Positions 3,498-26,099 of a stretch of DNA of 64,000 bases are shown one piece after another (positions within the stretch are counted from its first letter, which is position 1; each line of letters opens with the position of its first letter). The stretch covers positions 11,777,420-11,841,419 of the forward strand of contig CM020620.1 of NCBI GenBank assembly GCA_009829735.1. The letters are read 5' to 3'. The position numbers were made by a program, and so were the translations under genes. The DNA is from Pyropia yezoensis. Lineage: Eukaryota; Rhodophyta; Bangiophyceae; Bangiales; Bangiaceae. The notes beneath the pieces are model-generated. The model had not been told where the DNA came from. It saw only the letters and a list, made by a program, of their open reading frames with translations, and searched no databases.

Positions 3498-5456
3498 ATG
3501 GCGACCCCGGGAGTGGAGACGGACTCTCTTGACGAGCGTATGGAGGACACCTCCTACGGTGCAGCACCCGCCGGGACTTTCGGCGGGGGCTCCGCGATCG
3601 CTCCGGGGGATGGGACTCCCGCGTCACTCGGCTTTGGGTTGACGGCGGGATCTCCCCCAGAGGCGGGACAAGTTTTCCCGCGTGAGGCCTTGGGGCGGTG
3701 GTTTTACCCCGCTTGGCCTCTCTATGAGGAGGGCTCGACTGTTCTTCGCTGTGGCCGACTTGGCGCAGCGATGGGTCGGGTATGGGTCCGCCTACGGGAG
3801 AAGTATCCCCGTAGGGTCGGGTTCCCTGCCGGCTTCAGAACGGACCAGTTTGCCTTCCTGGACGACGAGGAGGTCGAAGACGTACAGCGTGCCAAGGCCA
3901 TGGTGGACCGCGGGGGAACTATCCCGGGTCCCGGCGACTTGCCGACCTTTACTTGGGACGCTGTGGCAACTCGCCCCCCGTACCATCACGAGGCCGATCC
4001 GCACACTCATCACTTTGATGTACGGATGGAGAAGGACTTCCGGCGAGGTCCCTACTTGGTGACCTCGGCTCAACTTGAGTTCCCTCAGCAGTCTGCTGCC
4101 AGTAAGGAGCAGTACTATCCGAAGAAGCCCGAGTGGTGGCCTCAAGTTGAGGTCCCCTACGGGTTCCCGGCGTTGCTGCCACGGTTGCTTGACAACTTCG
4201 GCTCCGTCATGTTGACGGCTGGCCCTGATCACCTGGTGTGGGCCATGTTGGCCACCCAGTGGCTCCTCGAGGTCATGTCGACCTGGGTGTCTTGTGTTCA
4301 GCGGCGGGGGATGCTCTGGCATCTCCCCCTCCGGCTTATCCAAGGTTTGGAACAGCTCACCCCTCAGCTAGTTGCTGAGGGGTGCTCATGAGGACAACTC
4401 ACTCTACTTGAGGAGATGCTCCGCCCCCACAAGTTTATCGAGTGGGAGAGCATTCAGCACGAGTTGCGCCGCCCCACTCGTGGGCCCAAGGACGATGGCG
4501 CACTTCGCCAGTTCGTGTGGGTCGCTCGTGAACTTCACGACGGCCGTGTGGTCCTACGAGAGGGGTTGGGCATCGGGGACTACCCGTATGCCCCGGGAGT
4601 GGATCGCCACACTGCGCCACCCCCGGACAAGCCCATGGTTATGGCCGTGCCCTCATATGATGACCATATGACTCAACCCACTGCGGGGGCCCCAAGTCGG
4701 GGTCGCAGTTACACCCGGGTCCCGCCACCTCGGCGTGCCCCTCCGCTTCCTCCTGTCCCCTACCAGCCGCACGGGGACACCCGGATTAGCGTGGCCATTG
4801 AGTCGTCCACCCCGGTGTCCCCCAACTTGGGGGCCACCCTCCTGACGGTATACCCCAAGTTGGTGTTACCGCCCACGCCTCTAACCTCAGAGATGATGAT
4901 CACCACGTTGGTGCGCACCATTTCCTGGTTGGCCGCGTCGACCGCAACCCTTCAAACTTCCGAGACTCCTCAACTTGAGGAGCGCGTTCGTACTGCAGTG
5001 GCGACCGCTAGTTGCGAGTCGGTGGCGGAGTTTATGACGGCCGAGTTGGCTCGCATTGGGGCTATTATGCCCCAGCCAGCCCCACTTGGGCGTGGCAAAC
5101 GTCGTGCGAGCCGGGCATACTCGCCTCCTCTCCGTCGTCCCCGACGCTCGCGGCGCTCTCCCTCCGTGTCGGAAGACGAGTTGTCTTACTCCGTCTCGGA
5201 GTCTTCGACTCCGTCTGAGTCGGAGTCGGTCTGTGTCGCCAACTTGCGCGCAAGACTCAACAGAAGGGCAGCCGCGGTCGTCGCCACCTACGCGACCGTG
5301 AGGGGCGCGGCGGTTCCGACTTGGAGCCGCCGGCCCCGCCGACTGGTGGGGAGCGTTATCGCCGTGGATCTCGCCGCTCGCCTCCTCGTGAGGGCGAGGG
5401 CCGTGGGGTTGGAGAGTCTAGCATGCATGCCTAGTTGGCAGCTGCCTTTATTGTGA
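3498..5456 (+). pseudogene. El-2 convergent accessory ORF (aORF-2), one in-frame TGA
   Basis: I do not recognise a family. From the ATG at 3498 the frame runs 652 codons to 5456, interrupted only by a TGA at 4389-4391; both halves share one frame. It starts with an acidic, low-complexity stretch, then a globular region (residues ~60-160 and 180-330), then a tail rich in Arg, Ser and Glu (~bases 5095-5230). The segments 'FGSV' (residues 234-237) and 'RRGMLWHLP' (269-277) have counterparts at similar spacing in aORF-3 of El-3 (464-467 and 497-506), so the two are probably homologous. It reads toward pol and ends 89 bp from the pol stop. Ty3/Gypsy elements of the plant Tat group are known to carry antisense ORFs in this place; whether this is related is unknown. 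Function is not assigned. Confidence 0.7.
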
Positions 5457-5545
5457 GAGTGTGAGGGTTAGGGCTGTAGTTAAAAGCCACTCTGCGTACC
5501 ACTTCGACTTGAAGCACTCTCTTGGCACTGTTGCTCGGCCTTCCC
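5457..5545. other. Spacer between convergent aORF-2 and pol stops
   Basis: Only 89 bp separate the two converging stop codons. The spacer runs into a hairpin TCCCTCA-CGT-TGAGGGA at 5542-5558 that covers the pol stop. A shared 3'-end or terminator role is possible but not shown. Confidence 0.5.
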
Positions 5546-8500
5546 TCACGTTGAGGGAGGGCTGTTAGGGTCTATCTCATTCCGGGCACAGTATGCCCGG
5601 ACCTTCTCAGCGGGAAGGTCTTCCACATACTCCCACGTATGATCCTTGGCTTTGTAGCCAAACCAGCGCACCCTCAACATGAGGCGGTCAGTGTCCTCAT
5701 CCCAGCCGTGGTCGATGAACTTATCGAACACGTTCTCCTGCGGGCCCTGTTTGGCCGCAGGCAGTGAGGGGAGGCGCCACGCTTCCAACGCACGCGCCCA
5801 AGCTGGGTCGCCTGCAGGCGGTGGTGCAACTTTGACCACGTCCTGTCCGTTCACGGTGCGGACCCCATCGTCACTTTCGATGGTGAAGCGCCGCCCATCA
5901 GTACGAAGGACCTGGTACGGCCCCTTCGTCTGGAATACCAACTTACCCCCAGTTGGGGTGTGTGAGTGTACCAGCACCCAGTCCCCCTGCTCGGGGACAT
6001 GCTTGGCGTTGCGCACCTCTTTGTCAAAGGTACGCTTGTAGCGCTTTTGTGCTTTGTCCATCTCAGCCCTGACTTTAGGGATGAGGTTTTCAAGCCTAGC
6101 AGCGAACTCCGCCTTACTCTCAGTAGGAGTAGGCGTACTGCCACTATCCTCCCTAGTTGGGAGCGGCCGCCGCACGGCAATAGACCGCACGCGACGGGGG
6201 GTCACAAAAGCGAGGAGTACTTCCCCGGTAGATGAGTGAACCTGCGAATTGTAGGCAGTGGTAAGAATAGAAATGTATTGGTCCCACGTTTTCACGTGCT
6301 CACTCACATAGTGGCGCAGCTGCCTAACAATAGTTTTGTTGAATCGCTCCACCTGCCCATTAGTTTGGGGGTGATAGGGGGTGGCATAGTTTGCCCGCAC
6401 CCCCAATATATCCAGCACTCCCTGAAACAGTACAGACGCAAATTGCGGTCCATTGTCCGATAGTGTACTATCCGGAATGCCATACGCGGCAACCCAGTGA
6501 TCTAGGAAGGCTGACACGACCGACATGGCCGTGATATCTGCCAGTGGGATCGCTCGCGTAAGTTTCGTGAAGCGGTCACAGATAACCAGGAGGTACTGGT
6601 TGCCCTCCTCGGTCACTGGCAGTGGCCCCAGGATGTCCATCGCCAACGCGGCAAAGGGCTCCTTGGCCGGGAACAATAGCATAGCCGTAGTAGGCCGCCG
6701 CTCCATCAGACGGTTCTGTGCACAACTTGTGCAGGCAGCCACCCAACTGTAGATGTCCACCACCATGGACGGCCAGTAGTACCTGGTCCTCAGGGTCTGG
6801 TACAGTTTACTAGACCCCAGGTGTCCACCCGTGGGAGCGTTATGTTCCCTCTAAAGGATACTGTCCCTGAGGGATGCGGGGACGACAAGTTGTTCGGTCC
6901 CCTGGAATACCCCCCTCCTCATGAGGAGGCCATCGTCTCCCAGAAAGAACCGCGTCTCCGCCACTGTATCCAGTGTATCCCTCTGCGACTTGCAGAAGGG
7001 ATCCTCGGCCTGGGCCTTCACCACCTCGTCCAGGGACAGGGGCAAGTACTTCTTGTTCCCTGGCGCCTCGGGGTTCAACACCTGACCCGAGCGCGTGACT
7101 ACCCCCACGATGGGGATGTCCTCATCGACTGGGCTAGTGTCCAGCCCCTCGGTAGGTACCCGAGAAAGGCCGTCGGCAAGGGCATGTTGCCTGCCAGGTC
7201 GGTACTCAATATCAAAGTTGAAGGGTGCCAGTCGCACCCTCCACCGATTGAGACGAGTGTTCGTACAGTCCGTCTTAAAGATGAACTGCAACGCGCGGTG
7301 GTCACAGCGGATGAGGAACTTCTCACCCTCTAGGTAGTGACGAAGTGACGTCACCGCCCATACCACTGCGAGTCCTTCCAACTCGGTGACTCCGTAGTTC
7401 TTCTCGGCCGAGTTCAGCCCCTTGCTGAAGTATCCCACCGGCAAGTACTCCTTGTCCGGCTGCTGCTGAAGCAACAAACAACCAAGTTGGTCGTAGCTAG
7501 CATCCACATCCAGGATGTAGTGGCCTCCCAACCTGGGAATAGCCAGGATAGGGGGCTTCAGCAGAAGGTCCCGAAGAGTCTCAAAGGATTCCTGCTCCAC
7601 CCGACTTGGGGGAGGCAGGTTCTTCGGTAGCGTTGAGCTCACTAACTCATTCAACGGCTTCGCCACCTTCGCGAAGCCCTTGGTGAAACGTCGGTACACG
7701 TTACACATCCCGAGGAAGCTCCTCATCTGGGTCTGAGTCCGGGGGTACTGAGCCTTACGGATGGCCCTCAAGTTCTTCTCGTTGACACTGAGACGCCCCG
7801 GACGGACAACATGTCCCAAGTATTCCACCTCTTGAGTGAAGAGGTGGCACTTACTCGCCTTCAGAGACACACCGGCGTCAGCAAGTAGCTTGAACACCTG
7901 GCCAAGATGGCCAATGTGTTCCTCCGGACTTCGGGAGAACACAATGATATCGTCTAGGTACACGAGACAGATCTGCCACCGTACTCCGGCCAGAATCATG
8001 TCCATAGCGCGCTGGAAAGTTGCCGGCGCGTTACACAGACCAAACGGTAGACGCTTGCACTGGTAGGTACCACAGTGACAGGTAAAGGTAGTTTTGTGCC
8101 TGTCCTCCGGGGCAATGGGAATTTGCCAGTACCCCGCATTACAGTCCAGGGTAGAGAACACGTTCGCCTCCCCCAGAGAGTCCAGACAGTCGTCCATCCT
8201 AGGTAGGGGATAACTGTCCTTCACCGTGCTCTCGTTGAGCTTACGGTAGTCGATACAGAACCGGGGGGTCCCATCAACTTTGGGGACGATAACCACCGGA
8301 CTCGCCCACTCGGCCTTGCTGGCCTCGATCACATCGAGGGCCTCCATGCGAGCAACTTGCTCCTTAACGAGGGCCCTTGAGCGGGGTCCTCCCCTATACG
8401 GTTGTTGGCGTATAGGGGGTGCACCTGGCTTCAACTCGATCCGGTGTTGGGTAGCTCTCATGAGTCCCAATTGGCCATCCCACAACTTGTGATATTGGTC

Positions 8501-9544
8501 CAAGAGGCGTTCAACTTGAACCCTCAACCTGGGTGGGACACCCTCCATGTTCACATGGGGCCGAGGAGAGGCGGCCGACTTGGCTTGATGCTTCTCCTTT
8601 CCGGACTTCGGGTCGCTACTTGCGCCCGCATTTAGAGTGACCGCTACTACCGGTCCCTCGTGTTGGTCGATATAGCCGAACTTGGCTCCCGACTTGAAGT
8701 ACTTGGGCGACGAGCTCAGGTTCATCACCTGGGTCCTCCACGGGACTCCGGCTTTGGAGTCCATCGTGCCAAGGGCAAAATACACTTGGTGCTTGCGAGC
8801 AAGACGTGGGTGAGGGTGCACCAACCCGCTCCCCGTATAACCAGTTACAACATCAACGTGCGCCACCGAGTTGGGGGGCAACGTGACTTTACGGGCTAAA
8901 CGCAGGGTAGCAGTAAACCCTTCCCTCACAGAGCAAACAGGTTTCGACTGTGAGACTGTCACAGGAGCCACAGACTTTCCCTTACCAAGGATGGGGATAG
9001 TCTCCCCATTCATCAACTTGACCCAGTACTCAGGGCCACAAATCAAAGGCACTTGTGTGACGACATAAGGGGTACCCAGAAGCAGGGGTACCGATATATT
9101 CTCAACTACACCATAGGTCACGTCGACCTCACGGGCCCCCAACCTAGTTGGTAGGGTCACGGCACCAGCGATGGGAAGTACCCCGCCATTGATATCGATC
9201 AGATGGTCAGCTTTAGACTTCCAGCGTTGGAGCTTCATCTCCTTTGGTATCAGCGACTTGCGTATCAAGGAGGCTCCTGACCCGGTATCAAGTACGATAC
9301 GGGCACAACAGGCGCGGCCGGGGGAAAGTTGCACCCGTCCAGCCACCTGGAAGTCCTCACCCGTCAGCACCGCGATGACCCGACGTGGGTTAACGTTCTT
9401 GGGGAGTCCTACCCAAGGTGGGCGGACTCCCTTAGGTCGCCGCAGTATCCGGCATGGTTGGTTCGTCCTCTTGACCGACTTGGACGAGGCTGCCGCTGTG
9501 AGCTTCGGACGGCCAGCTCCAACGGTCCTTCGTTTCCCGCCCAC
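5546..9544 (-). pseudogene. pol: El-2 Pol: protease-RT-RNase H-integrase-chromodomain, one in-frame TAG
   Basis: About 1,333 codons in one frame with a single TAG at 6851-6853. Domains in order: retropepsin with 'LDTGSGASLI' (D-T-G near residues 86-88); RT with 'FCIDYRKLN', 'LPFGLCNAPATF' and catalytic 'YLDD'; RNase H ('ILDVDASYDQLG'); integrase with an HHCC zinc site ('HLG...CTSC') and DDE residues in 'MDILGP', 'LSDNGPQF' and 'NGQVERFNK'; and a C-terminal chromodomain-like fold ('LRVRWFGYKAKDHTWE'). The codon at 9544 is GTG and the frame overlaps gag in a different phase, so expression is likely by frameshifting from gag. The TAG falls just before the integrase zinc domain and would truncate the product after RNase H. 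Confidence 0.92.
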
Positions 9545-11472
9545 TTGGCGTCCGAGTCTGAGGACGAAGGGGAAGACGACGAGTCCGAGGACGACGTGTC
9601 CGCCCCCTTCGTCGAGGGTGTGGCGACCGCGACGACCGGTCGGGGTCCACCCTCGCGGCGTGAACGTACTTCGTTCGTAACCGACTTCTTACTCGCATTC
9701 CTAACAAGTTGTTGGATGCGTTTACTCAACTTGGGGCAATCATATGCCCAGTGTCCATCGGAATTGCAGTTCCAACACCGATTGTCAGTTCCCGGAGGGG
9801 TCTTCCCAACTGGGGAAGACGAAGAGATACCCTGGGAAGTTCCCACGGCAGCTACCACCCTCTCCTTGCGGATACGGCGTGCCTCTCTCAACTCTCTGGC
9901 CTGGCGCGCCTCCTACCGTTCCTTGGCCAACTCGGCCTGACGCTCCTGGCGTTGTTCCTCCCGCAACTTGCGGTAGGCCTCGCCTCTGCGGTAGGCGAAC
10001 CTAGCCAACTCGGCCAGGGTCGCCCGGGCAGTGTTATGCTCCCGGGTCTCCATCCGGACTGACCAATGGAGTCCCTCCACAAACCGACTCTTCACCACAG
10101 CTTGTGGATGAAGAAACCCACATTGATTGTTGAGCTTACGGACTCGCTCCGCAAAGGACAACTCGTCCTCTGCCTCTTCCTGATGGGCTTGCGTAAACTC
10201 CTCGACTTGAGAAGCCAACGCCGCTTCATCAACCATGGCCCTCAACAACCAGTTGACGAGCTCCAAGTAGGACGTCACCTCCCCAGCGCCTCCACTTGAG
10301 GAGCTGGGCATGACGGACATAAGTTCTGTCCGCAGGTCTCCCTTCGTAAACTCCTGTACCATGTAAAAAGCCATGCCTTCACTTATGGCATTGTCGTCAC
10401 AGGCTTTTGTGAAACGACGTAGGAACTCAAAGACACGGAGGGGGGGAGTTCCATCCCACTCCGCTTTGTGCCCAAAAGAGTGAAGTGCATTCTTCTTGGC
10501 ACGGCCCATGGCTCAGGCCTGGTCAGGACCATACACCACCGACTTGTTGTGGAGGGCGTAGGTCTCACAGTCAAAGATCCTCTGGTAGACCGGGTTGGCT
10601 ACCAGGATCTTGGGCGGCACCTCACGTTGAGGGAACAGCCGCTGTGGCACTGGGGTAAGTTCACCCTCAGTGCCTGTAGTCCGGCGCGGCGCGCTTGGTG
10701 TAGCCGCCGGCGTTTCCGGGGGGAACTTCCCCATAAAGGGCGTACGCCCCACTGAGCATGGTGTGGCTCCCTCGTTGGGAGTCACAGGTGTCGCCCCCTG
10801 TATGGGGCGACCCGAGATAGGCGTGAGGGGGGATTCCCCCTGCGCCCGCGGGCTCGAAAGCCCCGATCCGGTCTGGACTTTAAGGCCATCTGGCAAACTC
10901 GCCACAATCTGATTCAGAATAGTATTCGTCATCGTGACCACCAGGTCCGGCAAAGTCTGCCGCAACACATTGGTCGCCTCCCGACGGACAGTTTCCGCGA
11001 GGAGTGGATTGACGACTCCAGTTGAGTCTCGGTCCGCCTCCGGGAGTCCACCTGAGGGGTAACCACAATCCTCAGGGGTCTTAACCGGGGGCATGGGCGC
11101 GAGCCCATCGCCGACCAACGGAGGTCCGCCGTCCTCCGAAAGCCTAGTTGGCGACGGCTCCCAGCCAAAGTTGGCTCCAACCCGAGTGGACCCCGCGGGG
11201 ACAGTCCTCACCTCTTGGGATGTTCCCGTTGAGTAAACCACACGGTGGCCAGACTTCGGCCCACCCACATCAGAAGTGTCACCCGAGTGAACTCCCGACT
11301 GAGTCGGGGTGGCCTGTTGCCCGCCCGCACTTCCAGTCCTGCTGGCTTGAGGGACCTCCAGTCCCTCTGCGACCCCAGGTAAACGCACCTGTGTCTCACC
11401 AATATTCAAAGGCACTGAAGTGCGTGCGTCACCCGTGTACTCCCCGGACGACGGGGGGTCCGAACTAGCCAT
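9409..11472 (-). pseudogene. gag: El-2 Gag with CCHC knuckle, two in-frame stops
   Basis: One frame of about 688 codons from the ATG at 11472 to a stop at 9409, broken by TGA at 10513-10515 and TAG at 9913-9915. The N-terminal third is rich in Ser, Thr, Gly and Pro; the middle is a capsid-like helical segment ('VFEFLRRFTKACDD', 'SYLELVNWLLRAMVDE'); a charged coiled stretch follows, then one CCHC knuckle 'CWNCNSDGHWAYDC' at 9736-9777, and a Ser/Asp-rich tail. It would form the particle and bind the RNA genome. It overlaps the pol frame by about 135 bp in another phase. Confidence 0.88.
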
Positions 11473-11571
11473 GTTGGCTGTCGATCCGTATGACACGGTC
11501 CAAGTCCACCGTTCCTCTGAGACAGAGGGCCCCCTACACCCGGGTGCACCCGGAGGTAAAATTTACCTCTG

Positions 11572-11591: not shown

Positions 11592-12060
11592 TGTGGCAAA
11601 AACCACTTGCACACCCTACACCCAAGTTGGGGCGGTGTACAAGGGCTGCCTGCCGTGTCGGGGGAACCGGAAGAAGTACAAGTCGCACACACTCTGTCCC
11701 TGTTGTGGGGCAAACCCCCCACTGACAAACAAGAGGATGGTGTGTGGTCCAACAGTTTCTTGGTCGGGACGGGGACGCAGGGCCAGGCCCCGCTGTCCCT
11801 CCCCTTATCCCCCCAGGGTCCCCTCAGAATCTCGCCACTCAGAATCTCCCACCCCAGCACCTGCCCACCGGGCCACACGAAAATTCAAGACGATAAATGC
11901 AGAAAACGCTCAAATCCAAGTTGGATTTACTACTAAGCTAACGATCCAAAACTTAGGGAATACGGACCCAAATGCAGGGGGAGGAACGGATCAGGCTAGT
12001 GGCCTGCCGCCCCTTGCATGGCACGTGTTGCCCCCCTACCTGGGGGTCAATACTGCCACA
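11592..12060 (-). repeat. El-2 5' LTR (LTR-2)
   Basis: Begins TGTGGCAAAAACC and ends TACTGCCACA. It is the upstream LTR for the minus-strand gag-pol and so should hold the element promoter, though I cannot point to a strong TATA box. Confidence 0.95.
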
Positions 12061-12065
12061 GTGGT

Positions 12066-12130
12066 CTGGCACCTGGTGTCCCTTGGTCGCCATCCCGGGT
12101 CGACGCCAAGTCAGGTCCAGGGATGCTACA
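12066..12130 (-). repeat. LTR-S, reverse copy, right part
   Basis: Continues the reverse LTR-S interrupted at 2689 and ends GGGATGCTACA, the reverse complement of the LTR-S 5' end TGTAGCATCCC. The bases that follow (TAGCT) do not match those before 2183 (AAGAA), so no TSD of the reverse LTR-S is visible. Confidence 0.9.
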
Positions 12131-12238
12131 TAGCTCCCTCCCTAGTCCGGCACGTCGTCAGGCCGTAGGAAGTGCCACCGTGCACAGCCTCGAGCACGTC
12201 CACACGAGTGCCGAGGTTGAGCGTCTTCGCCCTGAGCC

Positions 12239-12859: not shown

Positions 12860-12880
12860 AACGAGGCACTCAAGCGACCG

Positions 12881-13709
12881 TGAGGGTTCGACCATTACTT
12901 GATCCAAGTCGGTCGTCAAGCCACTGATGTCATGCTAACTGCATCCGTACTTGATCCGTGATCTTCTTCGGACCGCATCCTGTGGATTCTAGATCCTTCC
13001 GAAAGCTTCGAACGCCTTCCGGAAGAATCTTGAATCCCCCAAAGATCTTCCACGAATATACTTTAACACGTGGCAGGATGCGTGGCTTACAATGGCCCTG
13101 GGACCCCTCCAGAGGGCCCATTATGGAAGGCCAATAATGGTGCTGGAATTGCCATAGCTCGACGGGAACCAATAGTATCGCATATCCCGTTTCCAGCCTC
13201 TGGGACAACGTTCGGGAGCGTGTAGCGTGCTTACCAATAGTATGCAAGAACGATCTTGCAAGTAACCCTCCCCCTCAGATTGACCCTTCTGAGAGGGGGG
13301 TATGCCGCGACGAGTGCTGACCTGCGTTTTCGGACCACCTGGTGTGGCAAACAAGAGGGACTACGCCAAGGGCCCTGTGAGCGACCCGAGGGGTGTTCCA
13401 GAGGGTATAAAAGCGTGCGTGCCTGCGGCCGAGGGTGCAGAACGGAGGGAGGGCTCAAGCCCATCGACATAAACACCTTTGAACCCTAGGACCCGAGAAC
13501 GACCGACGTCAAGCTCATCCCCTTCGCACCCGTCTTCTTCGCGGACGTCTTCTTCGCGCGCACGTGTTGCGCGCGACCGACCGACACTGAGTAGGATGTC
13601 CGCCGTCGTACCGCGCGTGCGTTGAGGGTGGGCGCAGGGTGGCGAGCGAAGGACCGTGCGAGCACGAGTGTGCGGTCGCGGACGGCGCTTCGCTGCGCTT
13701 CACCTTACA
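12881..13709 (+). repeat. El-4 5' LTR
   Basis: 829 bp, closely matching 19835-20665, ending CTTACA. The likely promoter, TATAAAA at 13406-13412, lies about 300 bp before the LTR end. Confidence 0.92.
13406..13412 (+). promoter_or_regulatory. TATA box in El-4 5' LTR
   Basis: TATAAAA in the context GAGGGTATAAAAGCGTG; the same motif is kept in the 3' LTR at 20362-20368. Position and strand fit an RNA polymerase II promoter for the element. Confidence 0.65.
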
Positions 13710-16281: not shown

Positions 16282-16751
16282 TGTGGCAGTATTGACCCCC
16301 AGGTAGGGGGGCAACACGTGCCATGCAAGGGGCGGCAGGCCACTAGCCTGATCCGTTCCTCTCCCTGCATTTGGGTCCATATTCCCTAAGTTTGGGATAG
16401 TTAGCTCAATAGTAAATCCAACTTGGATTTGAGCGTTTTCTGCATTTATCGTCTTGAATTTTCGTGTGGCCCGGTGGGCAGGTGCTGGGGTGGGAGATTC
16501 TGAGTGGCGAGATTCTGAGGGGACCCTGGGGGGATAAGGGGAGGGACAGCGGGGCTTGGCCCTGCGTCCCCGTCCCGACCAAGAAACTGTTGGACCACAC
16601 ACCATCCTCTTGTTTGTCAGTGGGGGGGTTTGCCCCACAACAGGGACAGAGTGTGTGCGACATGCACTTCTTCCGGTTCCCCCGACACGGGAGGCAGCCC
16701 TTGTACACCGCCCCAACTTGGGTGTCGTGTGTGTAAGTGGTTTTTGCCACA
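16282..16751 (+). repeat. Solo LTR-2 in El-4 pol
   Basis: A 470-bp copy of the El-2 LTR in opposite orientation to El-2 (TGTGGCAGTATT...TTTTTGCCACA), flanked by a perfect 5-bp TSD TCCCC (16277-16281 and 16752-16756). A single LTR with a TSD marks an insertion followed by LTR-LTR recombination. Confidence 0.93.
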
Positions 16752-17127: not shown

Positions 17128-18492
17128 ATGGACCCCGAGTCGATCTCACTGACGGCTTTTCGAACGCGGTATTGGCTGTTCGAGTTCCTCGTCTTACCAT
17201 TTGGTTTGTGCAACGCCCCGTCGGCGTTCATGAATCTTATGAACGACGTCCTCCGGCCATACATCGACCGCTTCGTCTGCGCCTACCTGGACGACATCCT
17301 CATATACAGCAAGTCTGTGGACGAGCACCTGTTTCATCTGCGGAATGTGCTCACGACGCTGCGAGAGCACAAGCTGTATGCAAAGCTGTCTAAGTGCGAG
17401 TTTGGTCGTACATCTGTCGGTTTTCTCGGCCATGTCGTGTCGCCGAAAGGCTTTGAGATGGAACGCACGAAAACCGAGTCCATCCGGATGTGGCCGACTC
17501 CTAGGACCAAGAAGGATGTGCAGTCTTTCCTGGGCCTTGTCAACTTCTACCGGCGATTTGTACGCGGTATGGCGGAGATTGCTAAACCACTAACGGAGTT
17601 GACTGGGAACATCGACTTTGCATGGACAAAAGCGCATGAAGATTCTTTCCGCACGCTCAAGGAGCGAGTGGCGAGTGCGCCTGTGCTGCGGCCGTTTGAC
17701 CCAGACCTGTTCGTGATTGTGTCCACGGACGCCAGTGGCTGCGCTATAGGGGCTGTTCTAGAACAGGACGACGGTATGGGACGTCGCCCAGTGGCCTTCT
17801 TTTCGCAGACACTGAACATTCGCGAACAGCGGTACACCATACGAGACAGGGAACTGTTGGCCATTGTTCAGGCTATCAGACACTGGCGGTGTTACCTGCA
17901 TGGACGATCTTTTGACGTTCATACCGACCACGAATCCCTTCGCTACCTGAGAACCCAAGACAAGCTGAACGGTCGGCAAGTGCGCTGGCTGGAGACGCTG
18001 GAGCAACACGACTTCCGCATCACGCCTGTGCCTGGACCAAAGAACGTGGTAGCGGATGCCCTCTCGAGGAAGGACGAGAATGTCGAACCTCGAACCGAGG
18101 CTAACGCGGAACTCTTGAAGCGCGTACTACGCAAGGCGCTACCGAGAACAACCATCAATCCCGAGAAAACCAAAGAACCACGGAAAACCAAAGAACCACG
18201 GAAAACCAAAGAACCACGGAAAACCAAAGAACCACGGAAAATCAAAGAGCCACGGACAATCAAAGAGCCACGGACAATCAAAGAACCAGAGAAAGAACAA
18301 GAACCAAGGAGTCCTGGAGAATCACGGACTTCCAAGGAACCCGAGAATGAGCTACAAGTGAACAACCTCATGACATTCGAGATGGACCCAGACAAGCTCG
18401 CTACGCTCCACACTGAGTACCATGCGGACCCCGAGTTTTCCAAACTCTACGAGAACCCAGTGTTGCCCTACCGTAAAGACAAGGGGTTGTAA
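17128..18492 (+). CDS. pol: El-4 RT palm/thumb, RNase H and a Lys-Glu-Pro repeat linker
   Basis: A 454-codon open frame continues the RT: 'LPFGLCNAPSAFMNLMND', catalytic 'AYLDDILIYS' (near 17281-17310) and the thumb 'FLGLVNFYRRFVRGMAEIAKPL'. RNase H follows with 'VIVSTDASGCAIGAVL' (first Asp), 'RDRELLAIV' (Glu) and 'FDVHTDHESL' (Asp). After 'VVADALSRKD' comes a linker with about seven copies of a 6-residue unit like K-T-K-E-P-R (bases ~18163-18289), and then the start of the integrase N-terminus. A TAA at 18490-18492 splits it from the integrase in the same frame. Confidence 0.85.
   Translation: MDPESISLTAFRTRYWLFEFLVLPFGLCNAPSAFMNLMNDVLRPYIDRFVCAYLDDILIYSKSVDEHLFHLRNVLTTLREHKLYAKLSKCEFGRTSVGFLGHVVSPKGFEMERTKTESIRMWPTPRTKKDVQSFLGLVNFYRRFVRGMAEIAKPLTELTGNIDFAWTKAHEDSFRTLKERVASAPVLRPFDPDLFVIVSTDASGCAIGAVLEQDDGMGRRPVAFFSQTLNIREQRYTIRDRELLAIVQAIRHWRCYLHGRSFDVHTDHESLRYLRTQDKLNGRQVRWLETLEQHDFRITPVPGPKNVVADALSRKDENVEPRTEANAELLKRVLRKALPRTTINPEKTKEPRKTKEPRKTKEPRKTKEPRKIKEPRTIKEPRTIKEPEKEQEPRSPGESRTSKEPENELQVNNLMTFEMDPDKLATLHTEYHADPEFSKLYENPVLPYRKDKGL
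18163..18289 (+). repeat. 18-bp minisatellite coding for a Lys/Glu/Pro linker
   Basis: About seven tandem 18-bp units of the type AAAACCAAAGAACCACGG, the later ones slightly changed (ATC for ACC, GAG for GAA). The unit length is a multiple of three, so copy number can vary without breaking the frame. Confidence 0.85.
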
Positions 18493-19839
18493 CTCATAGG
18501 TGACCGCACGTGCATCCCCGCTGGTACTCACCGACTTGCTGTACTCCATGAAAATCACGATGTGCCAAGCCAAGGGCACATGGGAGTTCGCAAGACAACC
18601 AAGAACCTGGTAGATAAGTTCTACTGGAAGAAGCTGAGACAAGACGTCAAAGAATACGTGGAGACATGTGATCCTTGCCAACGCAATAAGAGCAGAACGG
18701 AATCACCTCTGGGTCACCTCCAACCACTAGAACCACCGAAGGAGCGATGATCAAGCGCCTCTATGGACTTCATCACACCACAACCCAAGACTGCCCGAGG
18801 GCACACTGGTCTGCTGGTCGTCGTCGACCGACTGTCGAAGATGATACGCCTAGCAGCGACCAAGAGCGGTGCCTCGGTGCCCCACGTGGCCAAGCTGTTC
18901 TACGACCACATGTATAGAAACTTTGGTCTACCTGCAAGCATCATAAGCGACCGAGACCCTGTCTTCATGCCCAAGTTCTGGAAGGCGCCGATGGATAAGA
19001 TGGGTGTGCGAATGCGCCCATCGTCAGCGTACCACCCGCAGACCGATGGACAGACGGAGATCATGAACAAGAAGATCGAAGAAGTGCTGCGCTGCTTTGT
19101 CGACCACAATCAATCGAACTGGGACCTGATTCTCACGGACGTGGAAGTGGCGAACAACCAATCCACGAATTCCGTTACGACTCACACGCCGTTTTATCTG
19201 GCGTACGGATTGAACCCCAAGACCGTCCCCTTTGACCTCATTCGGGGAACGAACGACAAGCTACCTGCTGCAGCGGAATGGCTTTCATCTCTGAGCGCGG
19301 CTCACAAGACGGCAACGGACGCGATCCGTCAAGCGAATGCCTACCGAGCTGCGTACGCCAATCGATCTCGGGGTACCTGCGACCTGAAGGTCGGCAACTA
19401 CGTCCTACTAAGCGCCAAGAACCTGATGCCTGAGTCATATCAAGGAGCGCGCAAGCTGATGTCCAAGTACTCGGGACCCTACCGCAGCGCGGAGGCTGTT
19501 ACTCCGGTGACCTTTCGACTCGACCTGCCCACCACTGTCCTGGAACGCAAGCTACACAATGCGTTCCACGCCAGCCTACTGACGCCTTACAGGGCTGACG
19601 AGAACTTCGATCGTCGCCCTGTTCCGGCTCCACCGGTAGCCCTGACTGCCGGCCCTGTGGAGTACGAGGTCAACAAGATCCTGCGCTCCCGCAAGCGATG
19701 CGGTCGTACGCAGTATCGGGTGTCATGGAAAGGCTACGATGACACGGAGAACCAATGGATCTCGGAGGCGGACCTCCATGCCCCTGCTCTACTCCGGGCG
19801 TTCCACAAGCGGGGAGCGTCTTCAGGGGGGGAGATGTAA
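18493..19839 (+). pseudogene. pol: El-4 integrase with C-terminal chromodomain, one in-frame TGA
   Basis: Same frame as the RT. The zinc-binding N-terminus ('HENHDVPSQGHMG...CDPCQRN') reads to a TGA at 18748-18750. The core follows from 18763: catalytic Asp in 'MDFITP', Asp in 'IISDRDPVF' 61 residues later, and Glu in 'DGQTEIMNK' with 35 residues between, a proper D-D-35-E set. A GPY/F-like segment ('KLMSKYSGPYRSAEAV') and 'NAFHASLLTPYR' lead to a classical chromodomain 'YEVNKILRSRKR...WKGYDDTENQW', with the aromatic residues (Y, W, W) that read methylated histone tails in related domains. This suggests targeting to heterochromatin. The stop codon overlaps the 3' LTR start at 19835. Confidence 0.88.
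19824..19834 (+). other. El-4 polypurine tract
   Basis: AGGGGGGGAGA immediately before TGTAAG of the 3' LTR; it also codes for the C-terminal residues of the integrase. Confidence 0.8.
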
Positions 19840-20665
19840 GCGTTCGACCCTTACTTGATCCAATTCGGTCGTAAAGCCACTGATGTCATGCTAACTGCAT
19901 CCGTACTTGATCCGTGATCTTCTTCGGACCGCATCCTGTGGATTCTAGATTCTTCCGAAAGCTTCGAACGCCTTCCGGAAGAATCTTGAATCCCCCAAAG
20001 ATCTTCCATGAATAAACTTTAACACGTGGCAGGATGCGTGGCTTACAGTGGCCCTGGGACCCCTCCAGAGGGCCCATTATGGAAGGCCAATAATGGTGCT
20101 GGAATTGCCATAGCTCGACGGGAACCAATAGTATCGCATATCCCGTTTCCAGCCTCTGGGACAACGTTCGGGAGCGTGTAGCGTGCTTACCAATAGTATG
20201 CAAAAACGATCTTGCAAGTAACCCTCCCCCTCAGATTGACCCTTCTGAGAGGGGGGTATGCCGCGACGAGTGCTGACCTGCGTTTTCGGACCACCTGGTG
20301 TGGCAAACAAGAGGGACTACACCAAGGGCCCTGTGAGCGACCCGAGGGGTGTGCCAGAGGGTATAAAAGCGTGCGTGCCTGCGACCGAGGATGCAGAACG
20401 GAGGGAGGGCTCAAGCCCATCGACATATACACCTTTGAACCCTAGAACCCGAGAACGACCGACGTCAAGCTCATCCCCTTCGCACCCGTCTTCTTCGCGG
20501 ACGTCTTCTTCGCGCGCACGTGTTGCGCGCGACCGACCGACACTGAGTAGGATGTCCGCCGTCGTACCGCGCGTGCGTTGAGGGTGGGCGTAGGGTGGCG
20601 AGCGAGGGACTGTGCGAGCACGAGTGTGCGGTCGCGGACGGCGCTTCGCTGCGCTTCACCTTACA
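19835..20665 (+). repeat. El-4 3' LTR
   Basis: 831 bp, begins TGTAAGCG and ends CTTACA. It contains TATAAAA at 20362-20368 and differs from the 5' LTR by scattered substitutions and its intact first bases. Confidence 0.92.
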
Positions 20666-20848
20666 AGGACGCTCCTACGGCGCAGCGCGCGCGCCGGGAG
20701 TATTACTTGGGGAGGAGAAAGGTGGGAGCTACGGGGGCTTGGAGAAGGGAAGAGGCGGAGAGAAGGGTAGCTCGAACTGGTGCTTGCTTGTTTTCTAGTA
20801 TTTCCATTCTTGTAGTGCTTCTCTCCTTGATACACCCGTTCCCTTTTC
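20666..20848. other. Gene-free flank between El-4 and El-5
   Basis: 183 bp; pyrimidine-rich on the plus strand from about 20818, which could be the polypurine tract of El-5 read on the minus strand. No LTR of El-5 is recognised. Confidence 0.4.
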
Positions 20849-21529
20849 TTAATCTTCTTGTTCCTCGTCCGTTGCGGCCGAGCTCGCCTCGTCCATCACA
20901 CACCGGTCAGCTCCTTCCTTCTCGTCATCCTGCCAGTCTGACTCCAGGATCTTGCCAGCTTTGGCCACCGGGGTGCCCTCAATCCCGTTCCGCCGCGTGT
21001 AGGCACACACATCAGCAATGGGTAACCGGTTGGAGGGCTCCCAGGTATCATCAGATGGGTTGAGACCGAACCAGCGCACCCGCAGGTACAGGCATCCCTC
21101 CATCCAGGCATGGTCTACAAACCTGACGTAGACGAATTCTCGGCCTTCTTGTCGGGACAACCAGGGTACTGCGGCGCGCTTACGCCGGGTCAGGTCCCTC
21201 TTGCTTGGCGGTGGAGCTTGAGTGACGTGGTCACTGCTCACTCGGTACGGGGAGCCATCCACGTCCAGAAGGAGCATCCGGCCGTCCGTGCTCAGGATTT
21301 CATAGGGCCCAGCCGTCTTGGAGTCCAGCTTCCCCCGGGTCTTGCTGTGGTTATGCAAGAAAACCCAGTCGCCATCACCCAGTTCCTTGTTCTTTTCCTG
21401 GACACCCTGGTCATAGTCCCACTTGTATCGCTCCTGGGTCCTCGCGATGGACTCCTTGACTCGTGGGAGAAGGAGCTTCAGTGGTTCGAGGAACTCGTCC
21501 TTTGCGTTGGGGCCCGGCTTCAGGGCAGG
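20849..21529 (-). pseudogene. pol: El-5 pol C-terminus with chromodomain-like module
   Basis: Encodes a GPY/F-like segment ('DWVFLHNHSKTRGKLDSK' followed by 'AGPYEILSTDGRM') and a chromodomain-like block 'YLRVRWFGLNPSDDTWEPSN', close to the El-2 block 'LRVRWFGYKAKDHTWE'. An acidic tail ends it at 20849. It is in the same frame as the integrase part beyond the TAG at 21530-21532. Confidence 0.8.
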
Positions 21530-21968
21530 CTAGAGACCGTCCGGTATTCTTTCCAGGGACAAGTTGGTCTGCCGCCTTGGGGTAACAAAGTCGAGTGGAG
21601 CTACCCCTGTGGTCTGGTGAGCATGAGAGTTGTAGGCTAGAGTGAGGACCGCCAGGAGCTCGTCCCAGCTTCCTTGATGCTCCTCGACGTAGTCCCGAAG
21701 CATTTCCACCAGGGCCCGGTTGAAGCATTCCACTTGACCACTCGTCAGTGGTTGGTACGTCGTAGTAAACAGGTTCTTGATACCCATCACGTCACAGACT
21801 CCGTCAGTGGTCGGTACGTCGTAGTAAACAGGTTCTTGATACCCATCACGTCACAGACTCTTTGAAAGAACATGGATGCAAACTGGGGACCGTTGTCGGT
21901 CAAGACGGAGCCCGGAGGGCCATAGGCAGCCATCCAGGAATCGCAGAAGGCCAGCGTATCGTCCAGGG
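21530..21968 (-). pseudogene. pol: El-5 integrase core, second Asp and Glu part, with 59-bp duplication
   Basis: Encodes 'VLTDNGPQFASMFFQRV' (second catalytic Asp) and 'GQVECFNRALVEML' (catalytic Glu), then the conserved 'LTLAYNSHAHQTTG'. A 59-bp unit (21744-21802) is repeated at 21803-21861, which shifts the frame between these motifs. Confidence 0.8.
21744..21861. repeat. 59-bp tandem duplication
   Basis: GTCAGTGGTTGGTACGTCG... at 21744 is repeated from 21803 (GTCAGTGGTCGGTACGTCG...) with at least one substitution. 59 is not a multiple of three. Confidence 0.9.
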
Positions 21969-22437
21969 TGTGGCAGTATTGACCCCCAGGTAGGAGGCCA
22001 ACACGTGCCATGCAAGGGACGGCAGGCCACTAGCCCGACCCGTTCCTCCCCCTGCATTTGGGTCCATATTCCCTAAGTTTGGGATAGTTAGCTCAATAGT
22101 AAATCCAACTTGGATTTGAGCGTTTTCTGCATTTATCGTCTTGAATTTTCGTGTGGCCCGGTGGGCAGGTGCTGGGGTGGGAGATTCTGAGTGGCAAGAT
22201 TCTGAGGGGACCCTGGGGGGATAAGGGGAGGGACAGCGGGGCTTGGCCCTGCTTCCCCGTCCCGACCAAGAAACTGTTGGACCACACACCATCTTCTTGT
22301 TTGTCAGTGGGGGGATTGCCCCACAACAGGGATAGAGTGTGTGCGACTTGCACTTCTTCCGGTTCCCCCGACACGGGAGGCAGCCCTTGTACACCGTTCC
22401 AATTTGGGTGTGGCGTGTGCGAGAGGTTTTTGCCACA
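21969..22437 (+). repeat. Solo LTR-2 in El-5 integrase
   Basis: 469-bp copy of the El-2 LTR in reverse orientation, with perfect TSD CAGGG (21964-21968 and 22438-22442). It splits the integrase core between its first and second catalytic Asp segments. Confidence 0.93.
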
Positions 22438-22515
22438 CAGGGCCCTGATGGTTCTTAGCGGCATTGCTCTGGTGAGCTTGGAGAACCGGTCACAGATAAT
22501 GAGCACGTAAAGGTT
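22438..22515 (-). pseudogene. pol: El-5 integrase core, first-Asp side
   Basis: The minus strand reads 'MLIICDRFSKLTRAMPL', the strand-helix stretch that follows the first catalytic Asp in Ty3/Gypsy integrases. Upstream of 22515 the similarity ends. Confidence 0.75.
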
Positions 22516-22780
22516 GCTGTAGTGGTAGGTACGCCTTGGGCGCCTAGCACCCAGAACACGCAGAGAGCCAACCCATCAAGAACGCGGGGAGACAGGAGAG
22601 GTACCGAACCGCCGACCGCTTGGCTGGTTCACGCGGGGATCCGCGACCAGGACGACAGTGTTCAAGCACACGCAAGTCTGTTTTTTTCGAAGGGGAAAGC
22701 AACGCGCACCCCCACGCACACTCCAACCCTCTCTCACGCACACCCAGCAACCTTCCACACCGGGCCACGTGCGGGCCAAT
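22516..22780. other. Gene-free stretch before El-3
   Basis: 265 bp with no recognisable gene; a T-run lies at 22681-22687. The last five bases (CCAAT, 22776-22780) are the left target-site duplication of El-3. Confidence 0.5.
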
Positions 22781-23142
22781 TGTAGCACAATAGGGATCCG
22801 TCGCACGTCCACTCTCAGGGAACACTCACCAAGGGGGATCGGCACCAACGTCACCGGGAGGCCAAGGTTGCTGTCCTTGGAGCGCAAGCCACGGGACCAA
22901 GATGGGAGCCCAAATGGGAGGGGTTTGTTGTTCTACCTTGGCCGGCGGTGGATTCGCCACCGGCCCCCTCGTTATAAACCCTCGGAGACACTACTAACTA
23001 CCCTCCACCCCAAGATGCAAGTCCCTCTGGTCATACGTAACTTATAGATACCGTGACCAGTACGGACTCTCAAATTGAAAGCCAAGGATTAGAAGTAGCC
23101 CCCCTAATATTAGGGTCACACACGGACAACCATATTGCTACA
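22781..23142 (-). repeat. El-3 3' LTR
   Basis: Begins TGTAGCACAATAGG and ends ATATTGCTACA. On the plus strand it holds TATAAA at 22973-22978, right after an inverted repeat around 22942-22962, and so points toward the accessory ORF. Confidence 0.95.
22973..22978 (+). promoter_or_regulatory. TATA-like box facing aORF-3
   Basis: TATAAA in the context CTCGTTATAAACCC. The plus-strand direction is opposite to gag-pol and would start a transcript in the LTR that runs through the 588-bp leader to the accessory ORF at 23730. The minus strand of the same site reads TTTATAAC, a weaker match. Confidence 0.4.
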
Positions 23143-23156
23143 TATCCCCCCCTTAG
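23143..23156 (-). other. El-3 polypurine tract
   Basis: The minus strand reads CTAAGGGGGGGATA directly upstream of the 3' LTR. Confidence 0.85.
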
Positions 23157-23729
23157 ATTCGGCCCGTCCTCGGGTCGAGTTGCATTCGGGTTACCGAATG
23201 TAAGTGGGTCGCGTGACCGTTTACCCGTCGGGGGGGGCTTTGCGCCCCGTCGCGACAGACACCCCTTTTCGAGGTTGTCTGAGGGGGGTGCCCCCCTTTG
23301 TGTGTTACACACACGATCCGTTTTCCGGACCGTTAAATTCCCGATGCGGGTTCTGTTCACGACCCCCCTTTCCGAGGGGTGGTGCAAGCGGATCCGCCAC
23401 CAGGTGCCTGGTGGTAGGGGGGCCCCTCTCGTGTGGACGATTGAGTGGGGGCGGGAACTGCCCGCGTTGCGCGGGGGCGGTTGGGGGTGACCCCCCTTGC
23501 TTACCCCGTGTGGGGGGGGCGTGGCTCCGGTCCAGGTGCCTGGGTGGGGCGCCCCCGTAGTTCGGCTGGCGCGGGTCGTCCCGCGCTGCCGTATCGCTCG
23601 TGCTGAGCTGTGTGGTTATAAGCGCGGGTGCCCGCGCTTCCCTGGCTCGTCCGTGCGAGCGTTCTCTGTACCGGGTCGAGCCGGCCTCGGCTTTTCTGCA
23701 AGGGGCGCCCCTGCCACCCCGGTTGCACC
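23157..23729 (+). other. Leader of aORF-3, rich in inverted repeats
   Basis: No gene seen. It contains perfect or near-perfect palindromes, for example GCGGATCCGC at 23388-23397 and CCACCAGG-TG-CCTGGTGG at 23397-23414, which abut each other. Confidence 0.6.
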
Positions 23730-26099
23730 ATGTCGGACCCCCAGGTACCCGGGGGCGAGGACGACCTCCTGCCTGAAGAGGGGGAAGAGGTGATGGTGGA
23801 CGACGTTCCCGTCTCCGCCACCGCCGCCGAGTGCTTCCTAGCGAGCTCGTCGGAGGACGAGGACGACCGGGTGACCGTTCGTGTGGCCCCGGACGGTGCT
23901 CCGGGCGGTTTGTCGTCCGTGTGCAGCGGCGCGACGGCTCCGTCGGGTGGCGGGCAACCGCGGGTAGCTGCTGCGTCTACCCCTACTCCTCCGGCGGCCC
24001 CGATGGCTTCTGTCGCCGGTGCCGGCGCGGCTCAACCTCAAGACGGCGTCGTCGGCGTGTCGAGCGGTTATGGTGGCACCCCGACCGGGACGGTGGGTCA
24101 AGACGGCGCGGGTGCCCGCCCGGGTGGTTCATCCGCGGCTGCGGGTGGCGGGTCTACCCCTGCTGCCCCCGAGGTGCCCCCGTCGGGCTCGGGTGGCGGC
24201 GTTGCTCTGCCCGCGGTGCCGCGGGCGTCTGGCGGTCAAGGTGGGTCTACACCGATGGCAGCGGACTCCGGTAGTTACTCCGGGCGGGCGCCCGTCCTTC
24301 TTCTTCCTCCTCGGCCGCGTGCGACTCCGGCGCCGGCCCCTCTTCCGGTGGGGCATCCCCCGGCCCCCCCTATTCTTCCTGGTCCTGCCCGGGTTGCCCC
24401 GTTGGGTGGCGGCGTCGCCGTGGCGGCGGGTCAACCCGCCATGTCGATGTTCGACTTGGTGGCTCGGGTTCGAGGCCTGACTGTGCAAGAGTCAATGGAG
24501 TCCGATGGGCGGATGCGGGTGGACTTCCACCTGCCCCATCCCCGTGGAGAGTCCTCCCGGCGCGTCAAGGTGGACCCGAGTTGGGAGCGGGAGTTGGTGC
24601 GGCTGTTCAACCAGCCGAACGCGGTGCGAGTGGAACACCATTGGATCCTGAGTCAGCCGGATGACCGGCATGCGCACCTCTGGCGCACCCGGGTGGGACG
24701 GGGTGAGGTCTACCTCGACCCCAACTTCGGGGTATGCGACCTGATTGCTCCCGCGTTGCCGCGGGAGGTTGACTACCCGGCTAGTGCTCGGGGGATTGCG
24801 GCGGCGGCGGCGCCGGTTGCGTTCGGGGAGACGGTGGGCGATACCGGTCGGTATCCCGACTTTGACTACTACCCGGGGGTACCCCCGTATCTGTCGTTGG
24901 CTCCTCCCTACCCGCCTATGGCGAGTTTGAAGTCGGCGTCGAGCTGGCGACGTAACCATGGTGTCATGGCGGATGCGTTCCGCACCGATATAACGTGTGC
25001 GTTGCAGACCGGCAACGGTCGTGCGCCTGTATACACTCCCGTGCGCCCGCCTCTGTGGCAGGAGGGGTGGGAACCCGCCCCTGCTTTCCGGTTTGACACC
25101 GGCCCTTGTCTCCGATACTTCGGGAGTGTGTTGGCCTCCCGGCCGGTCCACCCGTTGCAAGGTACCTTTACCCTTGAGGTTACCCTCGGGCAGGCTTCCT
25201 CCTTCCTGCTGTCCGTCCGTCGGCAGGGGCGCCTGTTCCATCTTCCGACAGGTGTCCGTCGGCACATCGCGCAGTTGGGCGTGGACCTGATCGCTGCCCG
25301 AACCGGGTTGGCCCGGGAGTTCGAAGCCCTGCTGCCTGTTCACGATGCCGTGAACTGGGCTGGGGTGTTGGCCCTTCCCCCGTACCGGGACCCGCAGGCT
25401 AGGGCTACCGCCTTGCCTCGTCACTCGTTGCGTATCCGGCGTACTCAGCCGGGTGAGCCTAGTTGCCATGGGTGGGCGTCCACCGAGGCCGTTCCTGACC
25501 TGGGTATTCCCATGGTTATCCATGACCCTCTTCAGGTCCTTGCCCCGTGGTTCGGTAACCCGATACCGGCGGCGGTTGGCCGTCGTCCCCGAGAGTGGGG
25601 CTCTGCGGGTGGGGAGCGTGAGGTGTCCCGTCGTCGGGCGGAGCCCCGCCGGGGTTACGGTGGAGCCCCTTCGGTAGGGTCCTACCGAGCCTCGTATCAG
25701 GTGCCACCGGCTCCGGTGGTAGCCGTGTCGGCTCCTCTGGCTCCTCTGGCTGCGCCAGTGTCCGCTCCCGCCCCTGTCATACAAGACGGGGGTCCCCGTC
25801 TCTGGTATGAGGGCGTTGACGCCCTTGTTGCCCGCGCAATGCGGGAGGGTCTCTCTGTTAGCTGGGGGGGTATCCCCCCAGGTGCTGCGCTTGTTGGGTC
25901 CGCGCGTTGCTTCGGTGGCGTGCTTGACCGCCTCCAGAAAGCTCTGGAGGACGTGGAGGCTGGCCGCAGCACCCTCGTCCAGCTATGCACCGAGGTAACT
26001 CGGGTGATCGACCGTCGTGACATTGCCGACCGGTGGAGCACGGAGGTATACGCGCTTACGCGTGAGTGGCCTCCCTCGGGCAGTGGGTCCACCCACTGA
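23730..26099 (+). CDS. El-3 convergent accessory ORF (aORF-3), 789 aa, intact
   Basis: No known family recognised. The ATG at 23730 is chosen because an acidic N-terminus like that of aORF-2 follows it; the frame is open further upstream without good codons. Residues 1-50 are strongly acidic ('GEDDLLPEEGEEVMVDD'), ~50-240 is a long Gly/Ala/Pro/Ser-rich low-complexity region, ~250-590 looks globular, and the end is Arg/Gly- and Pro/Ala-rich. Shared blocks with aORF-2 include 'FGSV' (464-467) and 'RRQGRLFHLP' (497-506), followed in both by a helix with 'L..LV/LIA'. It lies between the 3' LTR and pol and converges on pol, 480 bp apart. I see no signal peptide, membrane span or enzyme motif. Being intact in a young element, and matched by a relative in another family, argues for selection. 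Function unknown. Confidence 0.75.
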   Translation: MSDPQVPGGEDDLLPEEGEEVMVDDVPVSATAAECFLASSSEDEDDRVTVRVAPDGAPGGLSSVCSGATAPSGGGQPRVAAASTPTPPAAPMASVAGAGAAQPQDGVVGVSSGYGGTPTGTVGQDGAGARPGGSSAAAGGGSTPAAPEVPPSGSGGGVALPAVPRASGGQGGSTPMAADSGSYSGRAPVLLLPPRPRATPAPAPLPVGHPPAPPILPGPARVAPLGGGVAVAAGQPAMSMFDLVARVRGLTVQESMESDGRMRVDFHLPHPRGESSRRVKVDPSWERELVRLFNQPNAVRVEHHWILSQPDDRHAHLWRTRVGRGEVYLDPNFGVCDLIAPALPREVDYPASARGIAAAAAPVAFGETVGDTGRYPDFDYYPGVPPYLSLAPPYPPMASLKSASSWRRNHGVMADAFRTDITCALQTGNGRAPVYTPVRPPLWQEGWEPAPAFRFDTGPCLRYFGSVLASRPVHPLQGTFTLEVTLGQASSFLLSVRRQGRLFHLPTGVRRHIAQLGVDLIAARTGLAREFEALLPVHDAVNWAGVLALPPYRDPQARATALPRHSLRIRRTQPGEPSCHGWASTEAVPDLGIPMVIHDPLQVLAPWFGNPIPAAVGRRPREWGSAGGEREVSRRRAEPRRGYGGAPSVGSYRASYQVPPAPVVAVSAPLAPLAAPVSAPAPVIQDGGPRLWYEGVDALVARAMREGLSVSWGGIPPGAALVGSARCFGGVLDRLQKALEDVEAGRSTLVQLCTEVTRVIDRRDIADRWSTEVYALTREWPPSGSGSTH

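Follow-up and report, generated by a model that had tools for sequence, protein, structure and literature searches.

The 64,000 nt of Pyropia yezoensis DNA analyzed here (the window) contain two Ty3/Gypsy retrotransposons, El-2 and El-3, and the remains of a further element, T, all of them with sequence of an antisense accessory gene of the kind that lies between pol and the 3' long terminal repeat (LTR) and is read against gag-pol. This gene is termed here aORF, for accessory open reading frame (ORF). Matches to the three frames throughout the genome suggest an unnamed protein superfamily of at least seven families and several hundred copies, which would have been carried convergently in a Ty3 lineage since before these families split, a reading to which we assign a probability of about one half. 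The original prediction, made from the letters of the window, had proposed that divergent Ty3/Gypsy families preserve a real protein, and homology, selection and copies outside the window all support that proposal.

The intact representative in the window is aORF3 of El-3 (23730..26099, plus strand, 789 aa). As had been predicted, it is open and lies on the strand opposite to gag-pol, with the 3' LTR on one side and the pol end, at 26579, on the other; no stop interrupts the frame over 23628-26099, and the ATG at 23730 is taken as the start. Its layout comprises an acidic N-terminus, a Pro/Ala/Gly linker, a conserved core at about residues 370-530, a mildly basic stretch and a C-terminal part. 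The accessory frame of El-2, aORF2 (3498..5456, plus strand), was found in the predicted frame and place but is not the single ORF that had been described, an in-frame TGA at 4389-4391 of the window copy having been overlooked. The two blocks said to be shared are real and similarly spaced, with FGSV at residue 234 and RRGMLWHLP at 269 in the N-terminal piece (aORF2N), and FGSV at 464 and RQGRLFHLP at 498 in aORF3. Both N-termini are acidic, as claimed (net charge of the first 60 residues, -15 in aORF2 and -7 in aORF3), but the Arg-rich C-terminal region is strong only in aORF2 and mild in aORF3 (+6, residues 601-660). The N-terminal part of the T-family aORF (34521..35326, plus strand) ends at 35326, where a 1419-bp tandem array starts.

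Homology among the accessory frames

A match between the El-2 and El-3 frames, proposed earlier as a check, was recovered by BLASTP (aORF2N versus aORF3, 35.0 bits, E=3e-6, 26% identity over 160 residues), the direct profile match being weaker (E=4e-4, probability 35). In the controls for aORF2N, block-shuffled aORF3 sequences reached at most 27.7 bits (500 made, 395 with any hit), reversed aORF3 25.8 bits and five other proteins of the window at most 22.7 bits. The T fragment, previously suspected to be a third N-terminus, is a relative of aORF2N (BLASTP E=3e-5; 30.4 bits in a rerun, against at most 23.1 in shuffles) and is 85% identical to a copy elsewhere in the genome with an open frame of 902 codons; BLASTP finds no direct match between the fragment and aORF3, and its start, placed by homology to full-length copies, is near 34521 and not at 34629.

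Profile comparison with hhalign links T to aORF2N (E=8.7e-10, probability 96.5) and, through a collinear motif, to the C-terminal piece aORF2C (E=1.2e-4, probability 55); no profile match was obtained between aORF3 and aORF2C. The core of a further family, D, matches aORF2N (BLASTP 55.1 bits, E=6e-13) and the T fragment (E=1e-18), and the T and D profiles align with E=2.9e-29; BLASTP of the D core against aORF3 gave nothing of note. Given its weak or missing links to T and D, aORF3 is the most distant member, tied to the others chiefly through aORF2. The common core reads Y-P-x2-P-x-W-W ... V-P-x-G ... G-S ... W-L-x-E-V ... G-x2-W-x2-P, of which aORF3 retains part only. Judged by their sequences, the aORFs of these families are copies of one gene.

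Pfam at E<=1 returned no family for the aORF2 pieces, aORF3, the T fragment, two T proteins and a D piece, and NCBIfam no relative of the aORF proteins. A search of solved structures gave one hit, LC-Est1C (E=0.11), taken as chance, and 49 pattern matches in IMG/VR yielded none that was confirmed. The protein family appears new, with no Pfam or NCBIfam relative, the plant products of Grande and RIRE2 being set apart from it by description and not by sequence comparison.

Copies, position beside pol and selection

The genome searched comprises 107.5 Mb in 11 contigs. Copy counts for families 2 and 3 (those of El-2 and El-3), T, D and the pol ends are lower bounds; the list of C-terminal matches is complete. 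Full-length aORF3 has at least 57 matches (57 of 57 scored) at 93-100% identity, 43 of them without a stop, and its core alone at least 150 (150 of 150 scored) at 96-100%. Family 2 occurs at no fewer than 132 places (132 of 132 scored), of which the 131 besides the window copy are at 96-98%. Stops inside the 297-residue stretch searched were seen in 2 of the 132 listed, 129 of the 131 besides the window copy being open over it and the stop of the window copy lying just beyond it, and most listed family-2 frames (about 110/132) are of 724 codons. The T fragment was found at 124 places or more (of 150 scored): itself, then matches from 85% down to about 28% identity. Among the matches listed, a group X stands at 42-47% identity to T, and a group C (20 listed rows, frames of about 250-510 codons) at about 30-38%. 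At least 150 matches to the D core (150 of 150 scored) include the T copies, 15 matches of 160 or more residues with no less than 82% identity, and 88 at 32-39%, mostly one further family, E, with frames often of 665, 846 or 900 codons. Families E and C are search matches told apart by place and query identity only, their letters not having been read. These matches distinguish no fewer than seven families of the aORF (2, 3, T, D, E, C and X), with several hundred copies, so that the expected copies outside El-2 and El-3 number in the hundreds.

The pairing of these copies with pol was assessed with 124 of 124 aORF rows for T, 109 of 150 for the D core and 71 of 132 for family 2, against all 150 listed pol C-termini matching T. 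A listed aORF lies within 4 kb of 69 of these pol ends, in all 69 cases on the 3' side, on the opposite strand and 725-2082 bases away; random placement gives 3.2 such pairs. Ranked by pol-end match, the first 49 (T-like) include 41 that are paired, the 8 that follow include 6, the 42 after those (mostly D-like) include 16, and the last 51 include 6, the last figure being unchanged when all 132 listed family-2 rows, the 88 E rows and the 20 C rows are used. The pol end of El-2 as query gave at least 150 matches (150 of 150 scored) at 97-100%, several of those last 51 among them; 11 of the 150 listed pair with the 132 listed family-2 aORFs, again invariably on the 3' side and opposite strand, at a spacing of 1545 or 2075-2082 bases. 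At all 30 family-3 loci fetched, LTR sequence lies 5' of the aORF (in part at L031), and 26 extend into the pol end, which is only partly reached at L017 and L035; at L027 and L028 another insertion interrupts the sequence ahead of it. The convergent position is therefore shown for families 2, 3, T, X and D, families E and C not having been placed beside pol. The 88 E and 20 C rows listed all lie more than 2.5 kb from the 132 family-2 rows and from the 50 family-3 rows (of 150) compared, and E and C rows are not near each other. A nested independent element as the source of the ORF was rejected, the ORF being at the same place in the families testable.

When the families are ranked by identity to T, compared pairwise and without a tree, aORF and pol end give the same order: 70-74% and 80-89%, respectively, for T1-T2 (two sets of T copies), 42-47% and 50-59% for X, 31-35% and 46-51% for D, and 24-30% and 29-43% for El-2 and El-3. 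This is as expected if both travel together. The aORFs of El-2 and El-3 are alike in their identity to T (29 and 30% in one alignment, 25 and 24% in another); their pol ends differ (38 versus 29%).

Purifying selection on the aORF protein is clear in families 3 and T, the ratio of nonsynonymous to synonymous substitution (dN/dS) being well below 1; a ratio near 1 across copies had been named earlier as grounds for refutation. The loci used were the best-scoring ones, a choice that favours intact copies. For family 3, 26 of the 30 fetched loci were retained (L017, L027, L028 and L035 were dropped for length change, nested insertion or truncation), and the pairwise ratio of nonsynonymous to synonymous polymorphism (pN/pS) is 0.377. 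In a null in which variable sites were re-dealt among sites of equal base and CpG status, pN/pS is 0.85 (standard deviation 0.11, lowest 0.67 of 60 shuffles). By 300-base window, the ratio is lowest (0.11) at 24930..25229 (plus strand), the most constrained window, which contains the shared motif; the acidic N-terminus gives 0.28, the Pro/Ala linker 0.80 and the other windows 0.33-0.60, while the pol C-terminus of the same loci gives 0.17. Variation in the family-3 aORF gathers at third codon positions, and in a six-frame test on a subset of pairs the named frame is the lowest (0.39), the others giving 1.17-1.52 except for the minus frame that shares third positions (0.47). For T, 15 of 30 loci could be used, the rest being frameshifted or partial, and 6 of the 15 are without stops. 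The dN/dS is 0.34 within T1, 0.40 within T2 and 0.18 between them, where the core window gives 0.058 and the N-terminal 60 columns 0.79. No window of family 3 or T has pN/pS above 1.

The carrying elements and their surroundings

El-3 lies on the minus strand between LTRs at 22781..23142 (3' LTR, with TGTAGCA...TGCTACA ends) and 33163..33525 (5' LTR), which are 98.6% identical and flanked by the 5-bp target-site duplication CCAAT (22776-22780 and 33526-33530). Its pol (26579..30745, minus strand) has reverse transcriptase (RT), RNase H (RH) and integrase (IN) matches above the Pfam cut-off and a weak protease match; gag (30754..32943, minus strand) is assigned by position, with a weak CCHC zinc-knuckle match (E=0.06). 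The LTR pair, the 5-bp duplication, gag and the pol order RT-RH-IN place El-3 in Ty3/Gypsy, although the gag and protease matches are weak. The presence of this gag frame led to rejection of the idea that the aORF is a missing gag. The leader between the 3' LTR and the start of aORF3 (23143..23729, plus strand), the presumed site of an aORF promoter, shows the highest divergence among the stretches compared in family 3 (0.059).

El-2, also on the minus strand, has LTRs at 2690..3158 (3' LTR, TGTGGCA...TGCCACA ends) and 11592..12060 (5' LTR) that are 98.5% identical, with the 5-bp duplication GTGGT at 2685-2689 and 12061-12065. In the window copy its pol (5546..9544, minus strand) is in two frames, with RT-RH at 6851-9544 and IN at 5546-6766. 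Weak chromodomain matches end the integrase of El-2 (5546-6766; E=0.0014, 19.0 bits) and of T (L058:3-431; E=0.00033, 21.0 bits), neither of which reaches the Pfam cut-off (25.1), and none is listed by Pfam for El-3 pol. A 2012 survey, in the portion of its text available (PMC3350952), gives retrotransposon chromodomains as not found in the Porphyra yezoensis sequences of that time. Both flanks of El-2 (1791-2696 and 12062-12130) match the 1419-bp unit of the tandem array, and El-2 therefore appears to be inserted into a dispersed copy of that unit, with GTGGT as the duplication. Two stretches, 16282-16751 and 21969-22437, are about 95-97% identical to the El-2 LTRs, have no nearby partner and are probably solo LTRs.

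The T element of the window is broken, being split by El-3 and ended at 35326 by the tandem array. Its left piece (22518..22780, plus strand) resumes at 33526 and continues to the start of its aORF (33526..34520, plus strand). Most fetched T copies align to 22518-22780 and then jump to 33526-35326, which indicates that El-3 sits inside the window T copy. The array itself (35327-64000) consists of about 20 head-to-tail units of 1419 bp, mostly 99-100% identical, and begins exactly where the T aORF is cut off; the ORFs of the unit carry an Arg/Ser-rich tract, and pieces of it match 1791-2696.

A fourth element, in the opposite orientation, has LTRs at 12880-13709 and 19836-20665. Its integrase frame stops at 19839, at the 3' LTR, leaving no space for an aORF, and its pol frame 17128-18492 has short EPRKTK-like repeats near the end. 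The pol proteins of El-2 and El-3 are 42% identical over 885 residues, and each is 35-37% identical to that of this aORF-less element. The host is photosynthetic (14 chlorophyll a/b-binding matches in the genome), and repeats, mostly LTR retrotransposons, make up 48.0% of the P. yezoensis genome according to the available part of PMC7423979.

Possible roles and known counterparts

The arrangement would be explained by one accessory gene, carried convergently between pol and the 3' LTR by an algal Ty3/Gypsy lineage, that entered the ancestor of these families once and was then inherited with pol. The aORF would be transcribed toward gag-pol from its own promoter in the leader by the 3' LTR, which would allow its expression when or where genomic RNA is not made. 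The product, and this is the least certain step, may be a soluble, mostly nuclear protein in which an acidic tail is combined with a Trp/Pro-rich core and basic stretches. It may work in trans on the RNA or DNA of the elements, to regulate their expression, silencing or nuclear passage, so that shortened copies lacking the core would be served by full-length relatives. The promoter and nuclear role are drawn by analogy with maize Grande gene23 and with Retand, as these are treated in the accessible text of PMC7264820 and PMC11963269, and a separately promoted, soluble, mostly nuclear trans-acting regulator is offered tentatively, at somewhat less than even odds.

Alternatively, the aORF product could be a particle or pre-integration-complex factor, involved in packaging, in nuclear import or in steering the integrase together with the chromodomain-like pol tail. 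Its divergence tracks that of pol, the core window is no less constrained than the pol tail, basic stretches are present, and copies with deletions could receive help in trans inside particles. However, no aORF has a Pfam match or any similarity to the gag, pol or integrase of the window above shuffles, and a convergent gene would need a separate transcript. Such structural factors are usually made in the sense direction from genomic RNA, and this alternative is considered unlikely, if a serious one. A role in countering host defence (RNA or chromatin silencing), maintained by an arms race, would agree with an aORF less conserved than the pol end between families, with the pN/pS of 0.80 in the linker and with the presence of several families and hundreds of copies in one genome; yet conservation of the core within families is strong (0.06-0.11) and pN/pS exceeds 1 in no window. 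This role seems rather improbable. It is very improbable that the antisense transcript and not the protein is functional, the long frame being incidental: convergent transcripts can regulate elements, a possibility raised for plant elements in the part of PMC7264820 available, but the sense-frame pN/pS is well below the null, variation falls at third positions, and 43 of the 57 listed full-length family-3 copies have no stop. Frames open by chance in GC-rich sequence (GC content, guanine plus cytosine, of 0.62-0.68 around the aORFs; a 430-codon frame on the other strand at 24492-25784) are refuted by the shuffle and decoy controls, which the real matches exceed, by the six-frame test, in which that minus frame gives 1.17, and by many homologues at a fixed position.

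Several observations weigh against a single accessory gene inherited with pol and acting in trans. No listed aORF partner was found for 81 of the 150 T-query pol ends and 139 of the 150 El-2 pol ends; the pairing share is low because both lists sample part of the large El-2 family, and the share of copies truly without an aORF is not derivable from them. The profile match of aORF3 to T is poor (E=1.7e-3, probability 16). Stops occur in 4 of the 26 family-3 copies, where the null averages 19.5; since one of the 60 shuffles has as few as 3, stop counts give no clear evidence. The AlphaFold2 model of aORF2N, run on three window proteins only, is unusable (mean predicted local distance difference test score, pLDDT, 34.5; predicted template modelling score, pTM, 0.21), and the nuclear location is a guess from charge alone. 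Among the matches listed are 18 T-type loci whose similarity to the searched fragment is confined to its first 42-71 residues; their pol end is at a distance of 725-1027 bases, the remaining frames are of 78-215 codons, and they have no C-terminal aORF match. Four of them have an open pol of 1342-1343 codons and a fifth has a stop. At four or more D-like loci (near C1:9360, C1:639213, C1:36770119 and C2:33809307), the C-terminal match is in a frame of 208-320 codons beside pol, with no core among the matches listed. Such core-less T and D copies imply that the aORF is dispensable in cis in some copies, perhaps altogether, and the multiplied shortened forms fit either trans complementation or dispensability. 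The T loci with a shortened aORF and a pol open over 1342-1343 codons (e.g. C2:2942588, C1:30163657, C2:24197006 and C1:26546798) form a natural deletion series.

Most descriptions of antisense accessory genes concern flowering plants, besides a small number of fungi, and the function of these genes is not settled. As a kind they are thus already known, and it is this protein family that appears new. The algal family gives comparative depth (T1/T2, D, E, C, X, 2 and 3) to ask about function and convergence, with core-less derivatives and an aORF-less element in the same window as internal controls, and ample copy numbers. In the open literature no paper was found on such an ORF in red-algal elements, at the level of listings and with most subscription papers outside the search. 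Red-algal transposons with another kind of accessory protein (ParB-like, with a DNA methyltransferase) are cited in the part of PMC12477816 available.

The closest counterparts in arrangement are maize Grande (gene23), rice RIRE2 and Silene Retand (TRP28/Transposase_28), which likewise carry a convergent gene between pol and the 3' LTR and, as in Pyropia, retain it in most copies, with an unsettled function and a proposed nuclear or regulatory role (available portions of PMC7264820 and PMC11963269). TRP28 is reported in 97% of recently active Retand clusters (PMC11963269, same portion). No aORF tested matches Transposase_28 (PF04195; Pfam, E<=1), and Retand is described as a non-chromovirus, whereas the pol of El-2 and that of T each have a weak chromodomain-like match at the end. 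Grande and RIRE2 are likened by place and orientation, from descriptions and not from protein sequences. The likeness to plant Tat elements noted originally therefore holds as an analogy only, the host being an alga and Tat not the family concerned.

Boty of Botrytis cinerea and Sclerotinia, as presented in the accessible text of PMC7264820, also has an antisense ORF between pol and the 3' LTR. Its host is a fungus, and it too was compared by description and not by protein sequence. REM1 of Chlamydomonas reinhardtii is reportedly an algal Ty3-group element with a regulatory ORF3p in inverse orientation, said to bear a PHD-type zinc finger, unlike any aORF tested, none of which has a Pfam match. 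The REM1 integrase is described as truncated and reversed in frame, retaining no more than the GPY/F module and the chromodomain (PMC2774666, in the text available). In human T-cell leukaemia virus (HTLV)-type antisense genes, which are retroviral, the gene is convergent and its antisense promoter is in the 3' LTR (PMC7264820 and PMC11963269, as far as available); the likeness is one of arrangement, with no sequence relation claimed. If the proposed reading is true, a trans-acting regulator with a transcript of its own would have come to lie at the 3' LTR of Ty3 elements repeatedly, each time independently.

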